DNA from: Paracoccaceae bacterium
GTDB taxonomy: Bacteria > Pseudomonadota > Alphaproteobacteria > Rhodobacterales > Rhodobacteraceae
Length of the DNA: 64,000 bases
Assembly (NCBI GenBank): GCA_030750975.1
Contig: JASMHC010000015.1
Coordinates: 372,001-436,000, forward strand
Reading direction: 5' to 3'
Shown: positions 406 to 56,192 of the stretch, in pieces
How positions within the stretch are numbered: the stretch's first letter is position 1
Layout: the number at the start of each line of letters is the position of its first letter
Made by a program: the position numbers and the translations under genes
Notes under the pieces: model-generated
What the model was told of the DNA's origin: nothing
The model's database searches: none
Seen by the model: only the letters and a program-made list of their open reading frames with translations

Positions 406-1419
406 ATGACAGCACAGGGCGCTTCGCCCACGCACGCGGCCGATCTTGGCCGCGCCGCCCGTCTGTCGGTTGCCCCGATGATGGACTGGACCGATCGGCA
501 TTGCCGGTATTTCCATCGGTTGCTGTCCAGGGAAACACTGCTTTACACCGAAATGGTGACATCTCCGGCCTTGGTGCGGGGCAAGGCCCTGCATCTGCTT
601 AACTATAATGCCGAAGAGCATCCGGTCGCGCTTCAGCTCGGGGGCAGCGATCCGGCAGAACTGGCCGAAGCGACAAAGCTTGGCAATCAATATGGCTATG
701 ACGAGATCAACCTGAATGTCGGCTGCCCGTCCGACCGCGTGCAGTCCGGAACCTTCGGCGCTGTTTTGATGCGGCAGCCCGATCTGGTGGCGGATTGCAT
801 CAAGGCGATGCAGGATGCCAGCGACGCCGAGGTAACAGTGAAATGCCGGATCGGTGTGGACGGGCAAACCCCCGAAAAGGTTCTGCCCGCTTTCATTGAC
901 ATTCTGCAAGCCGCCGGGTTGCGGCGCCTCATAATCCATGCCCGAAAAGCCTGGCTTGAGGGGCTAAGCCCTAAGGAAAACCGCGATATCCCGCCTCTGA
1001 ATTATGATCTGGTCAAGCGTATGAAGGCCGAGTTTTCCGACATGCACATATCGATCAACGGTGGCATCACCTCGCTGGATCAGGCCGAGGATTTGCTGGC
1101 CGCCGGGCTTGACGGGGTCATGATCGGCCGCGCGGCATATCATGACCCGGCCGAAATCCTGCTTTCGGCGGATCGCAGGATTTACGGATCGGATCACGCA
1201 ATCACACGGCGTCAGGCCGTCAAGCTGATGGAACCCTATATCGACCGGCATATTGCCGACGGTGGAAAGCTACACCAGATCACAAAGCACATGCTCGGGT
1301 TGTTCTCGGGCCAGGCCGGTGCCCGATACTGGCGCAGATACCTGTCGGAAAACGCCCATCGCGCGGGCGCGGATTTTCGGATTGTTGAAGAGGCCCTTGG
1401 TCAGATCGGGGCAGAATAG
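406..1419 (+). CDS. dusA: tRNA-dihydrouridine(20/20a) synthase DusA
   Basis: This FMN-dependent flavoenzyme reduces uridines in the D-loop of tRNA to dihydrouridine using NADPH. The N-terminal SVAPMMDWTDRHCR is the DusA hallmark. NLNVGCPSDRVQSG carries the catalytic cysteine, and the TIM-barrel phosphate-binding part INGGITS...GVMIGRAAY follows. The C-terminal helical domain containing ITKHMLGLF binds tRNA. Length, about 337 residues, is normal. Two starts are possible: GTG at 391 with AGGA three bases upstream, and ATG at 406. I prefer the ATG, but five extra residues are possible. It reads alone, downstream of fliL. Confidence 0.93.
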   Translation: MTAQGASPTHAADLGRAARLSVAPMMDWTDRHCRYFHRLLSRETLLYTEMVTSPALVRGKALHLLNYNAEEHPVALQLGGSDPAELAEATKLGNQYGYDEINLNVGCPSDRVQSGTFGAVLMRQPDLVADCIKAMQDASDAEVTVKCRIGVDGQTPEKVLPAFIDILQAAGLRRLIIHARKAWLEGLSPKENRDIPPLNYDLVKRMKAEFSDMHISINGGITSLDQAEDLLAAGLDGVMIGRAAYHDPAEILLSADRRIYGSDHAITRRQAVKLMEPYIDRHIADGGKLHQITKHMLGLFSGQAGARYWRRYLSENAHRAGADFRIVEEALGQIGAE

Positions 1420-1694
1420 CGCCCGGTTCACCGTGTCGCTTTATTGGCGCTGAGTGTCGGTTCTCTGGACCCTCGCGCAAGAATTGATCAAAATTCCGAG
1501 TCAGTTTTTTCTTGAATTACCGAAAAATGCGGTGCCACTATCAGTGACCAAGCGTGACGCGACGACATGTGCCGAATGCTCTGGATATAATGATCAAATT
1601 TGACTGATACTCTTCAGTACCAGAGTTTCGGGGACTCTTTTAGGAACAGATATCCCCTGAAATTCTAAATCAACAACAGGAGGAAGGATTAGAA
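1420..1694. other. Intergenic leader of the oligopeptide transporter operon
   Basis: This 275-base gap between dusA and the binding-protein gene is AT-richer than its neighbours and contains no plausible gene. It should hold the operon promoter, but I cannot pick a sigma-70 box with confidence. A strong Shine-Dalgarno sequence AGGAGGAAGG (1679-1688) lies seven bases before the ATG at 1695, consistent with high expression of the binding protein. Confidence 0.5.
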
Positions 1695-3320
1695 ATGACT
1701 TCTAAATCTTTATTGGGTGCGTTGCTTGCAACCACCGTTTTGGCGACCCCGGTTTTTGCTGCGGACAAGCAGCATCCTACGACCGGTGAGGCATTGGCCC
1801 ACGATCAAACATTCACCTACCGCGTCCTTGACGAACAAAGTTCAGTCGATCCGCAGGTTGTGGAAGATGTTTCGGGTTCGGAAATTGTACGCGACCTGTT
1901 CGAAGGTCTGATGAACCAGGATGCCGATGGCAACCTGATTCCGGGTGTTGCGACCGGTTACACCACCAATGCCGAAAAGACGGTATATACCTTTACCCTT
2001 CGCAAAGATGCAAAGTGGTCGAACGGTGATCCTGTCACAGCAAATGACTTTGTCTATGCATGGCGCCGCGCAACTGACCCCGAGCTGGCATCGCCCTATT
2101 CGTGGTTCATGGAGATCATGTCGATCCAGAATGTCAGCGAAATTCTGGCGGGTGAAATGCCAACCTCGGAACTGGGTGTTCGGGCGGTTGACGATTATAC
2201 CTTCGAAGTAACGCTCAGCGCGGCCCTGCCATATTTTGCGCAGATGACGACCCATGCGACCACCTTCCCGACCCATCAGGCGACCGTGGAAAAGTACGGC
2301 AAGGAATGGACACGGCCCGAGAATATCGTTTCGAACGGTGCTTATGTTCTTACCGAGCATCTGCCGAACGAACGGTCGGTTCGTGAACGCAATACCATGT
2401 ACTGGAACAATGATGCGACCATCGTTGACAAGGTTGTGGCGTTGGTGATCAACGACGAAAACGTCGCCTTCACCCGCTTCCAGGCGGGCGAGCTTGATCG
2501 CACCGAAATCCCGTCGGGTCAGTATCCGCGTTTGTCGGAAGAAATGCCTGACAAGGTGCTCGTCGCGCCGCGTCTGTGTTCGTATTACTATAACGTCAAC
2601 CTGACCGAGACTGGCAACCCGGCGCTTCAGGATGTGCGTGTGCGTCAGGCGCTGTCGCTTGCGCTGGATCGTGACATCATCACGCAGAACGTCACCGCCG
2701 GCGGACAGATCCCAGCCTATACCTTTACCCCGGGTGCGACCGCGGGCTTTGAGGTGCCAGATTCCGAGGCGGCTGGCATGACCCAGGCCGAGCGTGACGC
2801 GAAGGCGATGGCGCTGATGGCCGAAGCCGGTTACGGCAAGGACAATCCGCTGGATCTGTCGCTGGTCTACAACACGTCGGAAGGCCATAAGAAGATCGCA
2901 ATCGCGGCAAGCCAGATGTGGAAGCAGAAACTTGGCGTGAATGTCGAACTGTCCAACCAGGAATGGCAGGTCTTCCTGCAAACCCGCAGCAATGCCGAAT
3001 ATGAAGTCGCGCGCGCCGGTTGGTGTGGTGACTACAACGAGGCATCGACCTTCCTTGATCTGGTTCAGTCCGGCAGCGGCTACAACGACTCGAAGTACAA
3101 CAACCCCGAGGTTGATGCGCTTCTGGCCGAAGCCAAGACAATGGATGACCCAACTGCCAACTATACCGCGGTTGAGGCCATCATCGAACGCGATGTGCCG
3201 ATCATCCCGATCTACCACTACACAATCAACTATATGATGGACACCGACCTTGGTGGCTGGCCCGTCAACAATGTTGAGCAGAACTGGTACTCACGCGATC
3301 TTTATAAAATCGCCGAGTGA
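1695..3320 (+). CDS. oppA: Oligopeptide ABC transporter, periplasmic substrate-binding protein (OppA type)
   Basis: The protein captures peptides in the periplasm and hands them to the permeases encoded next door. It begins with a Sec signal peptide (residues 1-22, cleavage after PVFA). The rest is an SBP_bac_5 (cluster C) protein: LVRDLFEGL-type start, KWSNGDPVTANDFVYAWRR, and VRQALSLALDRD late in the chain. At 541 residues it has the size of Escherichia coli OppA. It is the first gene of oppA-oppB-oppC-oppDF and is separated from oppB by a GC-rich hairpin, as is common where the binding protein must be made in excess. The peptide range cannot be read from sequence. Confidence 0.9.
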   Translation: MTSKSLLGALLATTVLATPVFAADKQHPTTGEALAHDQTFTYRVLDEQSSVDPQVVEDVSGSEIVRDLFEGLMNQDADGNLIPGVATGYTTNAEKTVYTFTLRKDAKWSNGDPVTANDFVYAWRRATDPELASPYSWFMEIMSIQNVSEILAGEMPTSELGVRAVDDYTFEVTLSAALPYFAQMTTHATTFPTHQATVEKYGKEWTRPENIVSNGAYVLTEHLPNERSVRERNTMYWNNDATIVDKVVALVINDENVAFTRFQAGELDRTEIPSGQYPRLSEEMPDKVLVAPRLCSYYYNVNLTETGNPALQDVRVRQALSLALDRDIITQNVTAGGQIPAYTFTPGATAGFEVPDSEAAGMTQAERDAKAMALMAEAGYGKDNPLDLSLVYNTSEGHKKIAIAASQMWKQKLGVNVELSNQEWQVFLQTRSNAEYEVARAGWCGDYNEASTFLDLVQSGSGYNDSKYNNPEVDALLAEAKTMDDPTANYTAVEAIIERDVPIIPIYHYTINYMMDTDLGGWPVNNVEQNWYSRDLYKIAE

Positions 3321-46502: not shown

Positions 46503-46958
46503 TTATTTGGTTCCTATCATTTGAAACGGATTTAGGTCAGTGAAGCCGCTGATTTTGCTGTCAGCAACAGACCGCCCGGGGATTGTCCGCAGTCCGGCCA
46601 ATCCAGGAGCGTCAAACTTAAACGCCAATTCCGCGATTACATTCTGCGATGGGACGGCGACGCAGGTCATAGAACCCTTAGCGTCACCAAAACTTGAGTT
46701 GAAACTAACATGAGTATAGCTAGCGATTGAAACCCCGCGCACGTTTGAATCCCATTGATTAGGACTCTGTAGTTCGAGGCCTTCAAAACCTTCCGCTGAG
46801 TTCAACGTTTTCATAGCCATAGCAACGCACGATGCGTCGATCGCAGCCATCGCTGGATCATGAATTTCGTACTGTCGAGAAACGATTGCTTCCTGACTAG
46901 AAACCATTGATCCAATCGCTGCGAAACATGCGATTGCGTATGCTAGTTTATTTCTCAT
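46503..46958 (-). CDS. Exported protein of unknown function set between sucC and sucD
   Basis: A 151-residue protein with a probable signal peptide (MRNKLAYAIACFAAIGSMVS, cut near SSQE). The mature part has two cysteines (SCVAMAM near residue 44, MTCVAVP near residue 97) that could form a disulfide. I recognise no domain. Its base composition is clearly AT-richer than sucC and sucD. Both ends are joined to its neighbours by the same TAAATG with zero spacing, so it must be co-transcribed and translationally coupled with succinyl-CoA synthetase. It looks like a cassette placed exactly between two codons. Confidence 0.75.
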   Translation of the reverse strand: MRNKLAYAIACFAAIGSMVSSQEAIVSRQYEIHDPAMAAIDASCVAMAMKTLNSAEGFEGLELQSPNQWDSNVRGVSIASYTHVSFNSSFGDAKGSMTCVAVPSQNVIAELAFKFDAPGLAGLRTIPGRSVADSKISGFTDLNPFQMIGTK

Positions 46959-48152
46959 TTACCCCTTAACCGCCTTAACGATCTTCTCAGCACCATCTGA
47001 CAGGTTGTCAGCGGCGATGACGTTCAGGCCAGAGGTGTTGATGATCTCTTTGCCTTGCTCGACATTGGTGCCTTCGAGACGGACAACCAGCGGAACCTGA
47101 AGGCCCACTTCCTTGACCGCAGCAACAACGCCTTCGGCGATGACGTCGCAGCGCATGATGCCGCCGAAGATGTTGACCAGAATGCCTTTGACGTTCGGGT
47201 CCGAGGTGATGATCTTGAACGCTTCGGTCACTTTCTCTTTGGTGGCACCGCCACCAACGTCGAGGAAGTTGGCCGGTTCAGCCCCGTAGAGCTTGATGAT
47301 GTCCATCGTCGCCATGGCAAGGCCCGCGCCGTTCACCATGCAGCCGATTTCACCGTCCAGAGCGATGTAATTGAGGTCATACTTGCTGGCCTCAAGCTCT
47401 TTCGGGTCTTCTTCAGTGGTGTCGCGCAGCTCGGCGATGTCGGCGTGGCGGTAGACCGCGTTGCCGTCGAAGCCGACCTTGGCGTCGAGCACTTTCAGAT
47501 CGCCGCCGTCGGTGATGATCAGCGGGTTGATTTCCAGCATTTCCATGTCCTTCTCGGTGAAGGCTTTGTAAAGCTGGCCCATCAGTTTGACGCATTGCTT
47601 GACCTGCGCCCCTTCAAGGCCCAGCGAAAAGGCGATGCGACGGCCGTGATAGGCTTGGTATCCGGTGGCCGGATCGACGCTGAACGACAGGATTTTTTCC
47701 GGTGTTTCGGCGGCGACTTCTTCGATGTCCATGCCGCCCTCGGTCGAGCAGACGAACGAGATGCGCGAGGTCTGGCGATCAACCAGAAGGGCAAGATAAA
47801 GTTCGCGTTCGATGCCCGAGCCGGCCTCGATATAGATGCGGTTGACCTGCTTGCCCGCCGGGCCGGTCTGGTGGGTCACAAGGGTGCGGCCCAGCATCTT
47901 TTTTGCTTCCTCGGCGGCTTCTTCCACCGATTTGGTCAGGCGTACACCGCCCTTTTCACCGGCGTCCGCTTCCTTGAACGACCCTTTGCCACGGCCACCT
48001 GCGTGGATTTGGGCTTTGACAACCCAAAGTGGTCCGTCCAATTCGCCGGCTGCTGTTTTGGCTTCATCTGCTTTCAGGACCACGCGACCATCCGAAACGG
48101 GGGCACCGTAAGTCCGCAGAAGGGCTTTCGCCTGATACTCATGAATGTTCAT
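46959..48152 (-). CDS. sucC: Succinate-CoA ligase, beta subunit
   Basis: A 397-residue ATP-grasp subunit that binds nucleotide and succinate. [20 protein letters not shown] is the classic N-terminus; [14 protein letters not shown] is in the ATP-grasp fold; [14 protein letters not shown] and [13 protein letters not shown] are in the C-terminal ligase domain. It is the first gene of the leftward run and is preceded by the tandem TGTGATCACA sites. Confidence 0.96.
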
Positions 48153-48258
48153 TGAGTTTTCCCATCTTGCTGCGTTTGCACATTCAATGTCATGTCGGGG
48201 CGATGAAACTAAGCGTTTTTTCCCTGATTTGCCGTGTTAGCGCAAAAAAAGCGACATT

Positions 48259-48289
48259 TGTGATCACAGTTTTGAAGGGTGTGATCACA
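48259..48289. promoter_or_regulatory. Tandem TGTGATCACA operators upstream of sucC
   Basis: Two perfect palindromes TGTGATCACA lie at 48259-48268 and 48280-48289, exactly 21 bp centre to centre (two helical turns). They are about 110 bases before the sucC start and also upstream of the rightward glycosyltransferase gene. The same arrangement precedes sdhC at 55661-55691. I infer binding of a dimeric regulator side by side on one face of the helix. Confidence 0.7.
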
Positions 48290-48415
48290 ATTTTCCAATG
48301 ACGATTCGGGATTGGGGGAACGGACGCGTCTGCCGGTTGGCGGGCCTGCCGCGCAAAAGAGTTTACAGCCGAGTCAGCGCTGGGGTAACATTCGTTAAAA
48401 CAATGAGGCTATATA

Positions 48416-49444
48416 TTGAGCAAAGCCCAAGGCAAACCGGCGCAGACCCGGTGGGGCATCGTGACCACCGCGAAAGAAGTGCCCGACCTTCTGCTGGCAT
48501 TCGCCGCGCATCACGCCTCGATCGGCGCGAGCCGGATCCATTTGTATCTTGACGATCCCGACCCCGCGCTGGCGCGGCGGCTTGAGGATATTCCCGGCGT
48601 CGAAGTGACCCAGTGTGACACCACCTATTGGCAGATGATCCGTGGCCAGCGGCCCTCGGCGCAGGAAAACCGCCAGGTCGAGAACGCCATGGACGCCTAT
48701 GGCCGGACCGATGTGGATTGGCTGATCCATATTGATGCGGATGAATTCATCAGCCCGAGGGCGAACATTGTAAACGAGTTGACCTTTGTTCCCAAAGAGT
48801 TCCACTTTGTCGAGCTTGAGGTCAGGGAACGGGTTTATACGCCGGAACATCGGCCCGAGACGATATTCTCGGGTGAGTTCCGTGTGCCGCTGAACCGCCG
48901 AGCGCGGGCGGCGCGGGCGTTGTTCGGGGATATGGCCCCTTTCACCACGCGGGGGTTTTCCGGGCATTGCGCGGGCAAAAGCTTTGTTCGCGTGGGTCTT
49001 GAGCATTTGCTGATGGGCATCCATGTGCCTCGTTTGCGGAAAGTGGGGAACGAGCGGCTGATGTCGCTGATCTCGCACAGCGCCACGTTGCTGCATTTCG
49101 ACGGGCTGACCCCGGCGCATTGGGTAAGCAAGATGGTGCGTTATGGGGCGCAGGACACCTATCTGAAGTCGGACCGGCTGGGCGAGCATCGGCGGCGACA
49201 GCTGGAATATGTGATGGCCCGCAAAGGCGACCGGCAAGCGGTGGAACACTTGCATGATCTGATGAAAGTGGTGAAGGCCGAAGACGCCGCACGGTTGCGG
49301 GCGCTGGGGGTTCTTGAGCCTGCGGATGTGGATCCGTCGCTTGGGCTGCACCTGTTCGGGCTGGCGGATCAGGTGGATTTGTCGGTGGCGTATTTTGATG
49401 GGTATGACGCGCCAGCTGAGGAAGAATTGAAGCGAAGCGCTTAA
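48416..49444 (+). CDS. Family 2/92-like glycosyltransferase
   Basis: A 342-residue GT-A-like protein. The N-terminal WGIVTTAKEVPDLLLAFAAHH and IHLYLDDPDPALA, and the DxD-type HIDADEF (near residue 106), match the glycosyltransferases annotated as family 2 or 92 in Rhodobacteraceae. The start is TTG at 48416. No membrane segment is seen. It points away from sucC and splits the mdh...sucC order. It probably modifies a surface polymer; donor and acceptor are unknown. Confidence 0.7.
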   Translation: MSKAQGKPAQTRWGIVTTAKEVPDLLLAFAAHHASIGASRIHLYLDDPDPALARRLEDIPGVEVTQCDTTYWQMIRGQRPSAQENRQVENAMDAYGRTDVDWLIHIDADEFISPRANIVNELTFVPKEFHFVELEVRERVYTPEHRPETIFSGEFRVPLNRRARAARALFGDMAPFTTRGFSGHCAGKSFVRVGLEHLLMGIHVPRLRKVGNERLMSLISHSATLLHFDGLTPAHWVSKMVRYGAQDTYLKSDRLGEHRRRQLEYVMARKGDRQAVEHLHDLMKVVKAEDAARLRALGVLEPADVDPSLGLHLFGLADQVDLSVAYFDGYDAPAEEELKRSA

Positions 49445-54875: not shown

Positions 54876-55619
54876 ATGATACGCTTTCTTTGTGCCGCCG
54901 CCGCCGTTTTTTCCTTTGCATTGCCTGCAAGGGCTGAATTCCGATACGGCGACGAACAGCTGCAGGGTTATGTGGAAAGCAATCTTTTGAGTGTCTTTTA
55001 TCATGAGTTGGGCCATGCGCTGGTCGATATCATGGAGCTGCCGATTTTCGGCCAGGAAGAAGATGCGGCGGATGTGCTTTCGGTCTTTTTGATCGATGCG
55101 TTCTGGGAAGAGGAAAGCGCGGTTCAGATTGCCTATGACTCGGCCTTTGGGTTTCAGGCCGAGGCGGATGCTTACGACCCGGTGTTCTGGGGGGTGCACG
55201 GGCCGGATCAGCAGCGGTATTACAATCTTGTGTGCATTTTCTATGGCGCCAACCCCGACGAACGCGACGATGTGGCCGAAGAGCTGGGCCTGCCCGAAGA
55301 GCGCGCCGACTATTGCGATTTCGAATATGAGCAGGCGGCGGGAAGCTGGGGGACGGTGCTGGATAGGATCACGACCGAATCCGGTGGCAACAGCATGCGC
55401 ATGGATCGGGTCGAGCGAGATACCGACGGTGCCAGGCTGACGGCGGATTTGATAATCGAAGAGGTGGCGGCGCTGAACAGAGAGTTCAGGCTGCCCGCGC
55501 GGCTGACCATCAGCATCGAAGCCTGTGACGAGGCCAATGCCTGGTATGATCCGGAGTTGCGCGAGATTGTCATGTGTACCGAGTTTGCGGATGACATTGC
55601 GGCAAACGCGCCCTGGTGA
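54876..55619 (+). CDS. DUF4344 family zinc metallopeptidase, exported
   Basis: A 247-residue protein with a signal peptide (MIRFLCAAAAVFSFALPARA) and the zinc-binding HELGH at residues 43-47, followed by the acidic GQEEDAADVLSVF with a possible third ligand. This matches the DUF4344 putative metallopeptidases. Cysteines near residues 125, 150, 220 and 233 suggest disulfides in the periplasm. Substrate and role are unknown. The ATG at 54876 opens directly into the signal peptide. It sits between mch and the sdh operon and faces the same way. Confidence 0.8.
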   Translation: MIRFLCAAAAVFSFALPARAEFRYGDEQLQGYVESNLLSVFYHELGHALVDIMELPIFGQEEDAADVLSVFLIDAFWEEESAVQIAYDSAFGFQAEADAYDPVFWGVHGPDQQRYYNLVCIFYGANPDERDDVAEELGLPEERADYCDFEYEQAAGSWGTVLDRITTESGGNSMRMDRVERDTDGARLTADLIIEEVAALNREFRLPARLTISIEACDEANAWYDPELREIVMCTEFADDIAANAPW

Positions 55620-55660
55620 CTCGGGCCTGGCCGGGCGGGGCAGCATGCTTGGAAAGCGCT

Positions 55661-55691
55661 TGTGATCACGATAGCGATAACTGTGATCACA
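55661..55691. promoter_or_regulatory. Tandem TGTGATCAC(A/G) operators upstream of sdhC
   Basis: TGTGATCACG (55661-55670) and TGTGATCACA (55682-55691) lie 21 bp apart centre to centre, the same spacing as the pair upstream of sucC. They are about 120 bases before the sdhC ATG. A further copy, TGTGATCACA at 55997-56006, lies within sdhC and may be a chance of codon use. Confidence 0.7.
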
Positions 55692-55808
55692 TAATCGAAA
55701 ATTGCGTCAATTCGCGCAAGTTTTCCTAGACTCAGGTTCGATTGAGAGTGTGACAGAGACGTAAAAACCGTTAATACTGTAAGCAACGGTATACCGAAAG
55801 GACAGACT

Positions 55809-56192
55809 ATGGCTGACGTGAACCGGGGCAATCGCCCGCTTTCGCCGCATCTGACAATCTATCGCCTGCCAATAACAGCGATCACCTCAATCCTGGTTCG
55901 GATCACGGGCAATGCCTTGCTGATCTCGGCTGCGCTGGTTGTATGGTGGTTGCTGGCGGCGGCCACGTCGGAAAGCTATTTTGATCTGGCAAACGCTGTG
56001 ATCACAAGCTTCCTTGGCGATCTTGTCATGCTGCTGTCGCTTCTGGGCCTTTGGTATCACACGCTGGGCGGCATTCGGCATTTGATCTGGGATCAGATCA
56101 TTGCGCTGGAAAACGTCCCGGCCGAGAAAATGAGCTGGGCCATGTTGATCGGCTCGGTTGTGCTGACCGCACTTACCGTCGTTTTGGTATAA
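55809..56192 (+). CDS. sdhC: Succinate dehydrogenase cytochrome b556 subunit
   Basis: A 127-residue membrane anchor of complex II. RPLSPHLTIYRLPITAITSILVRITG is the conserved quinone-site N-terminus, and His in WYHTLGGIRHLIWD is the likely heme ligand. Three helices are visible. It carries an internal TGTGATCACA. It is first in the sdhC-sdhD-sdhA-sdhB operon, with 10 bases to sdhD. Confidence 0.94.
   Translation: MADVNRGNRPLSPHLTIYRLPITAITSILVRITGNALLISAALVVWWLLAAATSESYFDLANAVITSFLGDLVMLLSLLGLWYHTLGGIRHLIWDQIIALENVPAEKMSWAMLIGSVVLTALTVVLV

Follow-up and report, generated by a model that had tools for sequence, protein, structure and literature searches.

The suc operon and sdhCDAB, two TCA operons of a Paracoccaceae genome, are each preceded by a pair of GTGATCAC palindromes, and we consider it highly probable from the sequence evidence below that these pairs are tandem operators at which the GntR/FCD regulator AkgR would activate both operons, with a single copy of the site limiting expression of akgR itself. 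Both pairs lie in the 64,000-nucleotide stretch of DNA that was analysed (the window, C15:372001-436000; Table 1). The initial annotation had placed TGTGATCACA at 48259 and 48280, and TGTGATCACG followed by TGTGATCACA at 55661 and 55682; the positions and the 21-bp spacing were confirmed for both promoters. Its estimate that the sites lie 110-120 bases before the first gene is fair, the near edge being 107 bp (sucC) and 118 bp (sdhC) from the ATG. The genes behind the two pairs gave Pfam matches to SucC, SucD, SucA, two Sdh_cyt subunits, SdhA, and SdhB. A 151-amino-acid open reading frame lies between sucC and sucD (window 46503-46958, minus strand) and had no Pfam match.

Table 1. Operators, candidate promoter elements, and first genes of the two operons (window coordinates).
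Feature	Position	Strand	Basis
sucC distal operator TGTGATCACA	48280..48289	(-)	sequence match; kept in relatives
sucC proximal operator TGTGATCACA	48259..48268	(-)	sequence match; kept in relatives
A/T tracts about every 10 bp, operator to sucC promoter	48214..48258	(-)	46 non-redundant sequences
candidate sucC -35, CTTAGT	48208..48213	(-)	conserved TT at equal distance in relatives; putative
candidate sucC -10, CATTGA (weak)	48184..48189	(-)	TATA at about this distance in 34/67 relatives; putative
sucC, first gene of suc operon	46959..48152, ATG 48152	(-)	Pfam
sdhC distal operator TGTGATCACG	55661..55670	(+)	sequence match; kept in relatives
sdhC proximal operator TGTGATCACA	55682..55691	(+)	sequence match; kept in relatives
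A/T tracts about every 10.5 bp, operator to sdhC promoter	55692..55749	(+)	58 non-redundant sequences
candidate sdhC -35, GTGACA	55750..55755	(+)	consensus in relatives
candidate sdhC -10, TAATAC	55772..55777	(+)	spacing read from sequence; putative
sdhC, first gene of sdhCDAB	55809..56192, ATG 55809	(+)	Pfam

Single sites were only mildly enriched in the window, with 16 present at up to one mismatch versus a mean of 7.7 expected and 4 of 100 shuffles scoring as high. The pair, rather than the single site, is the rare feature, and its occurrence is far above chance. When the whole 3.19 Mb genome was searched for pairs with up to three mismatches, using the reversed pattern as a control, the exact 21-bp pair was found only before sucC and sdhC (control, 0; expectation under uniform composition, about 1e-4 exact pairs), and four further places resembled it with 2-3 mismatches each. 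Pairs scattered at random through the genome, an outcome that the initial annotation had named as speaking against its proposal, were thus not seen. The sequence TGTGATCACR occurs at ten genome positions, namely four in the two pairs, one before a GntR/FCD gene, and five within long reading frames, such that every copy outside genes either belongs to one of the two pairs or is the akgR self-site described below. The spacing of CRP/FNR sites (TGTGA N6 TCACA or TTGAT N4 ATCAA) was not found in TGTGATCACA, whose half-sites abut without a spacer.

The pair is conserved in relatives at both operons. Among 80 named loci fetched by SdhC, which are the best 80 of 525 confirmed and hence close relatives, 76 of the 79 that could be examined at sdhC have an exact pair upstream of this gene (spaced 21 bp in 64 and 20 bp in 12); for sucC, this holds in 67 of 68 (21 bp in 65 and 20 bp in 2). 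Lack of conservation at these two genes in related species, the other outcome held to be damaging at the outset, therefore did not materialize. None of 73 named loci carried a 21-bp pair before mdh. Across the family, sampled as one genome per genus, pairs with up to two mismatches were present in 105 of 120 genomes and matches to the reversed control in none. Under a rule that asked for at least one exact half and no more than one mismatch in the other, the sdhC regions of 115 genera held a pair at 21 bp in 82 cases, at 20 bp in 9, and at 19 bp in 1, with a single site in 3 and none in 20; in two of the 23 genera without a pair by this rule (G066 and G110), both halves have one mismatch each and lie 21 bp apart. 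A third exact GTGATCAC is found 56-207 bp further upstream of the sdhC pair in 19 of 79 named loci (L059-L138), at distances from the pair that are not clearly whole turns.

Apart from the two pairs, the window contains one exact copy, at 55997 within sdhC, as had been noted by eye and was confirmed by our search; it is one of the five TGTGATCACR positions inside long reading frames. GTGATCAC recurs at the equivalent place within sdhC in 11 of the 80 named loci, and this copy was set aside because conservation of the Val-Ile-Thr codons accounts for its recurrence.

We rejected the notion that the pair is common beyond the family. Of 285 genomes of the class outside the family, 25 had a match with up to two mismatches, a single one of these was exact (G269), and the reversed control matched in 4 of 289 genomes in the class-wide search. 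In G269, which belongs to another family of the same class, three GTGATCAC-type palindromes follow each other at steps of 20 and 21 bp (L354:1-2521) and lie near a GntR/FCD-like gene, which the exact pair precedes (1028-1903, plus strand) whose product is 29% identical to AkgR; by our own reading, an open reading frame on their other side resembles a piece of a TonB-dependent receptor.

The candidate for the regulator is encoded in the same genome but outside the window, at C14:71891-72541 on the minus strand. Its 216-residue product (P0001) matches the GntR (PF00392, 46.4 bits) and FCD (PF07729, 67.1 bits) domains above their cut-offs, and a copy of TGTGATCACA at C14:72549 ends 7 bp before its ATG. 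Ten genes in the genome have GntR-domain matches, eight of them above the family cut-off; the nine other than the C14 gene lack GTGATCAC within 300 bp upstream, one having a copy 872 bp upstream. A search of NCBIfam returned no fitting equivalog, the best match being far below its cut-off. RSP_0981, which we take to be AkgR of Rhodobacter sphaeroides, was reportedly identified as such by Imam and co-workers in 2015. In PMC4344238, RSP_0981 is predicted to control suc, sdh, and 2-oxoglutarate dehydrogenase; in PMC6365646, AkgR is termed an activator and GTGATCAC is given as a motif among its binding sites. The corresponding features were found here, with two GTGATCAC palindromes per promoter and pairs before sucC (followed by sucD and sucA) and sdhC only. 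The akgR gene lies within 25 kb of sdhC on a shared contig in at least 33 other genera, the two are far apart on one contig in at least five genomes (G009, G035, G039, G055, and G075), and in the host genome akgR is on contig C14 and sdh on contig C15; the neighbourhood implied by the RSP numbers appears to agree in part. Based on motif, targets, synteny, and domains, as distinct from a direct comparison with the RSP_0981 sequence, the C14 gene is most likely the orthologue of R. sphaeroides AkgR.

The pair and akgR occur together. Orthologues of AkgR are 61-82% identical to P0001 and paralogues at most 47%, a clean separation, and of the 120 family genomes, 100 have both pair and orthologue, 5 the pair only, 3 the orthologue only, and 12 neither (Fisher 2e-10, with genomes counted without correction for kinship). 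Two of the genomes with an orthologue only carry 20-bp pairs, before both operons in G009 and before sucC in G087; the third (G061) is an assembly without an SdhC match and with SucC as a piece only. The genomes with the pair only are G019, G021, G033 (where a 47% identical relative is present), G096, and G114. The match in G021 has two mismatches, G021, G033, and G096 are less than 80% complete, and G114 is rated complete; all of the five but G114 could be incomplete or divergent cases. One genome (G120, locus L128) has neither an AkgR orthologue nor a pair at either operon. Another (G109, L372, G109:C56:32700-34000) is a natural case of loss, in which decay of akgR accompanies loss of the pair: the akgR frame is broken up, no exact site precedes it, none precedes sdhC, and one half with a single mismatch lies before sucC. 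A SucC tree with 42 rows requires no fewer than 6 changes of the pair and no fewer than 9 of akgR. The well-supported branches yield three independent comparisons, of which an average of 2.7 had both features changing in the same direction and none had them changing in opposite directions; with only three such comparisons, significance is out of reach (p 0.25). The association is thus strong in counts and consistent, short of proof against kinship.

The single site before akgR is likewise conserved. Within 100 bp of the akgR start, an exact GTGATCAC is present in 51 of 60 loci examined and a copy with up to one mismatch in 53, leaving 7 without even a one-mismatch site; these loci include our own genome and are the best 30 per search, roughly 60% of the orthologues found. 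For 43 of the 51 loci with an exact copy, the sequence [TC]TGA[CT], mostly TTGAC, begins exactly 18 bp before the self-site and is likely the -35 element of akgR. With a 17-bp spacer, the -10 element would overlap the palindrome in its right half, an arrangement consistent with repression of akgR by its own product. The same spacer from the fixed TTGAC puts the start point on or beside the ATG (loci L139-L198); the akgR transcript may be leaderless.

The sites before sdhC keep a phased distance to the promoter. In many relatives, the sdhC pair is followed by GTGACA and, after a gap of 16 bp, by a TATNAN-like hexamer, plausibly a promoter, and we called the -35 element by the consensus [GT]TGAC. 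The distance from proximal operator to -35 was 47, 57-60, 69-70, or 78-80 bp in all 73 called named loci (80 minus 2 without a pair and 5 without [GT]TGAC); an alternative first scoring put one named locus at a distance of 14. In 77 genera plus the window, the distance was 36, 48-49, 57-60, 68-71, or 80 bp, the 77 being what remained of 84 after removal of 7 with a weak -10 element, and the 84 also held values of 47, 50, 115, and 214. Of the genera and named loci that carry a pair, 9 of 93 and 5 of 78, respectively, had no [GT]TGAC behind it. Upstream of sdhC in L098, L116, and L129, the pair is kept and [GT]TGAC behind it is missing. All shifted sdhC promoters, in 9 genera and 28 named loci, lie within 2 bp of whole 10.5-bp turns off the main class, where about half of shifts would fit by chance and the loci share ancestry and are not independent. 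Between -35 and ATG, the spacing is unordered in the genera (resultant 0.13 versus 0.88 for operator to -35) and partly ordered in the named loci (0.55 versus 0.88), many of which share one length.

The sucC promoter was placed by TATA position and column conservation, a weaker placement than that for sdhC. In the likely -10 zone, TATA was found in 39 of 67 loci and only at 60-61 bp (5 loci) or 70-72 bp (34 loci) behind the operator, two classes about one turn apart; the window's own sucC promoter has no TATA in this zone. An expectation-maximisation search for the sucC promoter was discarded, as its result mixed a TATA block with a conserved stretch near the start codon. In both operons, A/T content swings with a 10-10.5 bp period over about 45 bp from operator to promoter, with amplitudes at 10.5 bp of 6.2 and 5.4 for 58 and 46 non-redundant sequences, respectively; 2000 random shifts never exceeded 2.4. 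This geometry suggests that the operators and the promoter, together with the linker, are kept on a single face of the helix; curvature of the linker DNA and contact with polymerase would go a step further.

We propose that each pair is a tandem operator on which two AkgR dimers would occupy the same helix face as neighbours, separated by two turns, with operator centres at about -87/-108 (sucC) and -98/-119 (sdhC) from the predicted start points near 48177 and 55784. From there, AkgR would reach RNA polymerase over an intervening stretch of phased, probably curved A/T DNA and thereby activate both operons; this mode of activation would need operators and promoter on a fixed helical face. Given the 20-21 bp spacing, cooperative binding, which the initial annotation had suggested, is plausible. 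At the single operator right behind its own -35 element, AkgR would limit its own synthesis, and its effector would report the carbon state of the TCA cycle. The sites, their conservation, the phasing, the akgR self-site, and the joint occurrence of pair and regulator are seen directly in the sequences, from which we infer binding, the presence of two dimers, cooperativity, activation, curvature, autorepression, and the role of an effector. In its most specific form, the TCA promoters would be a rigid helix-face module, with two dimers, a curved A/T linker, a promoter moved by whole turns only, a long-range activator of the FCD-type GntR class that works through the shape of the DNA, and self-repression at the single site of its own, perhaps leaderless, promoter; we offer this full version tentatively, at slightly less than an even chance.

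Four other readings were weighed. That AkgR binds as two independent operators with no need for cooperativity or phasing, the spacing being kept by descent, we regard as rather unlikely. All our comparisons are inside one family, where shared ancestry explains part of the constancy, and akgR itself is served by a single site; however, the spacing of 20-21 bp is kept although most spacer letters vary, and on an SdhA tree of 78 rows (a quick tree, with 23 of 75 inner branches well supported) the operator-to-promoter classes need at least 8 changes, each by whole turns. The pair might also be bound by a GntR/FCD paralogue in place of the AkgR orthologue, for example by the protein at C15:495445 with 35% identity. 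Such a paralogue is of the same protein family, of which many genomes hold several members, and the 29% identical relative in G269 also lies beside the pair. We give this little probability, as only the C14 gene among the ten GntR-domain genes has the palindrome within 300 bp upstream. Control of the divergent glycosyltransferase-like gene (48416-49444), which starts about 130 bp to the other side of the sucC pair, is an equally improbable role for that pair, since the distal site stays at -126 to -153 from sucC in 65 named loci with a 21-bp pair (-125 to -179, a wider range, in selected distant genera) and the phased A/T tracts and TATA are on the sucC side.

The least credible owner of the pair is the LacI-family protein CceR, which is also known to regulate central carbon metabolism in Rhodobacter. 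In PMC4344238, sdh of R. sphaeroides is among the predicted targets of CceR (RSP_1663), and a later paper places sdh and 2-oxoglutarate dehydrogenase in the R. sphaeroides CceR regulon. The predicted CceR motif, [A/G/T]GTT N6-8 AAC[A/C/T] in PMC4344238, is nevertheless unlike TGTGATCACA and has no match in 48150-48420 or 55600-55812, against 28 in the whole window, and the suc and sdh operons of Paracoccus denitrificans are reported to be outside the CceR regulon. CceR was rejected because its motif is absent from both promoter regions. The proposal of one regulator for both operons gains strong support from the same pair at both, its conservation in the family, the GntR self-site, and the joint presence or absence of akgR and the pair. 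The initial annotation had named AkgR and CceR and left the owner open; motif, targets, and co-occurrence favour AkgR and, on this evidence, the regulator of the pairs appears to be AkgR, not CceR.

Most known FCD-type GntR proteins are repressors, and activation by AkgR from about 90-120 bp upstream would contrast with this mostly repressing family. The proposal assigns a small, widely conserved regulon (suc, sdh, and akgR) to a single regulator gene, which is amenable to deletion. The geometry suggests that selection acts on how operator and promoter are arranged, and test constructs could be modelled on the whole-turn variants that occur naturally.

CRP at class I promoters activates from upstream sites at distances that differ by whole helix turns. 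This whole-turn rule is common to both systems, but CRP is of an unrelated protein family and has half-sites TGTGA/TCACA 6 bp apart, which abut here, and the sites described here are further upstream and paired. CceR has target pathways that overlap those of AkgR and differs in its motif, which is absent here. The GntR regulator of the deoxyribonate cluster of Pseudomonas simiae, PS417_07240, has the same GTGATCAC palindrome, at -47 to -40 relative to its own start codon, and differs in its targets, with no tandem pair mentioned in the available part of the source (PMC6365646); it is 32% identical to AkgR. AkgR of R. sphaeroides is the closest system, being a GntR and FCD protein with the GTGATCAC motif and suc and sdh targets, and with akgR often near sdh. 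The differences here are the fixed tandem spacing, the phasing to the promoter, and the akgR self-site; our literature search found nothing on tandem geometry, so that the strict helix-turn spacing to the promoters is new within the literature searched, although the primary AkgR paper (Imam 2015) may report some of these features. The system is thus one known from R. sphaeroides, which is described here in another genome and traced through the family.
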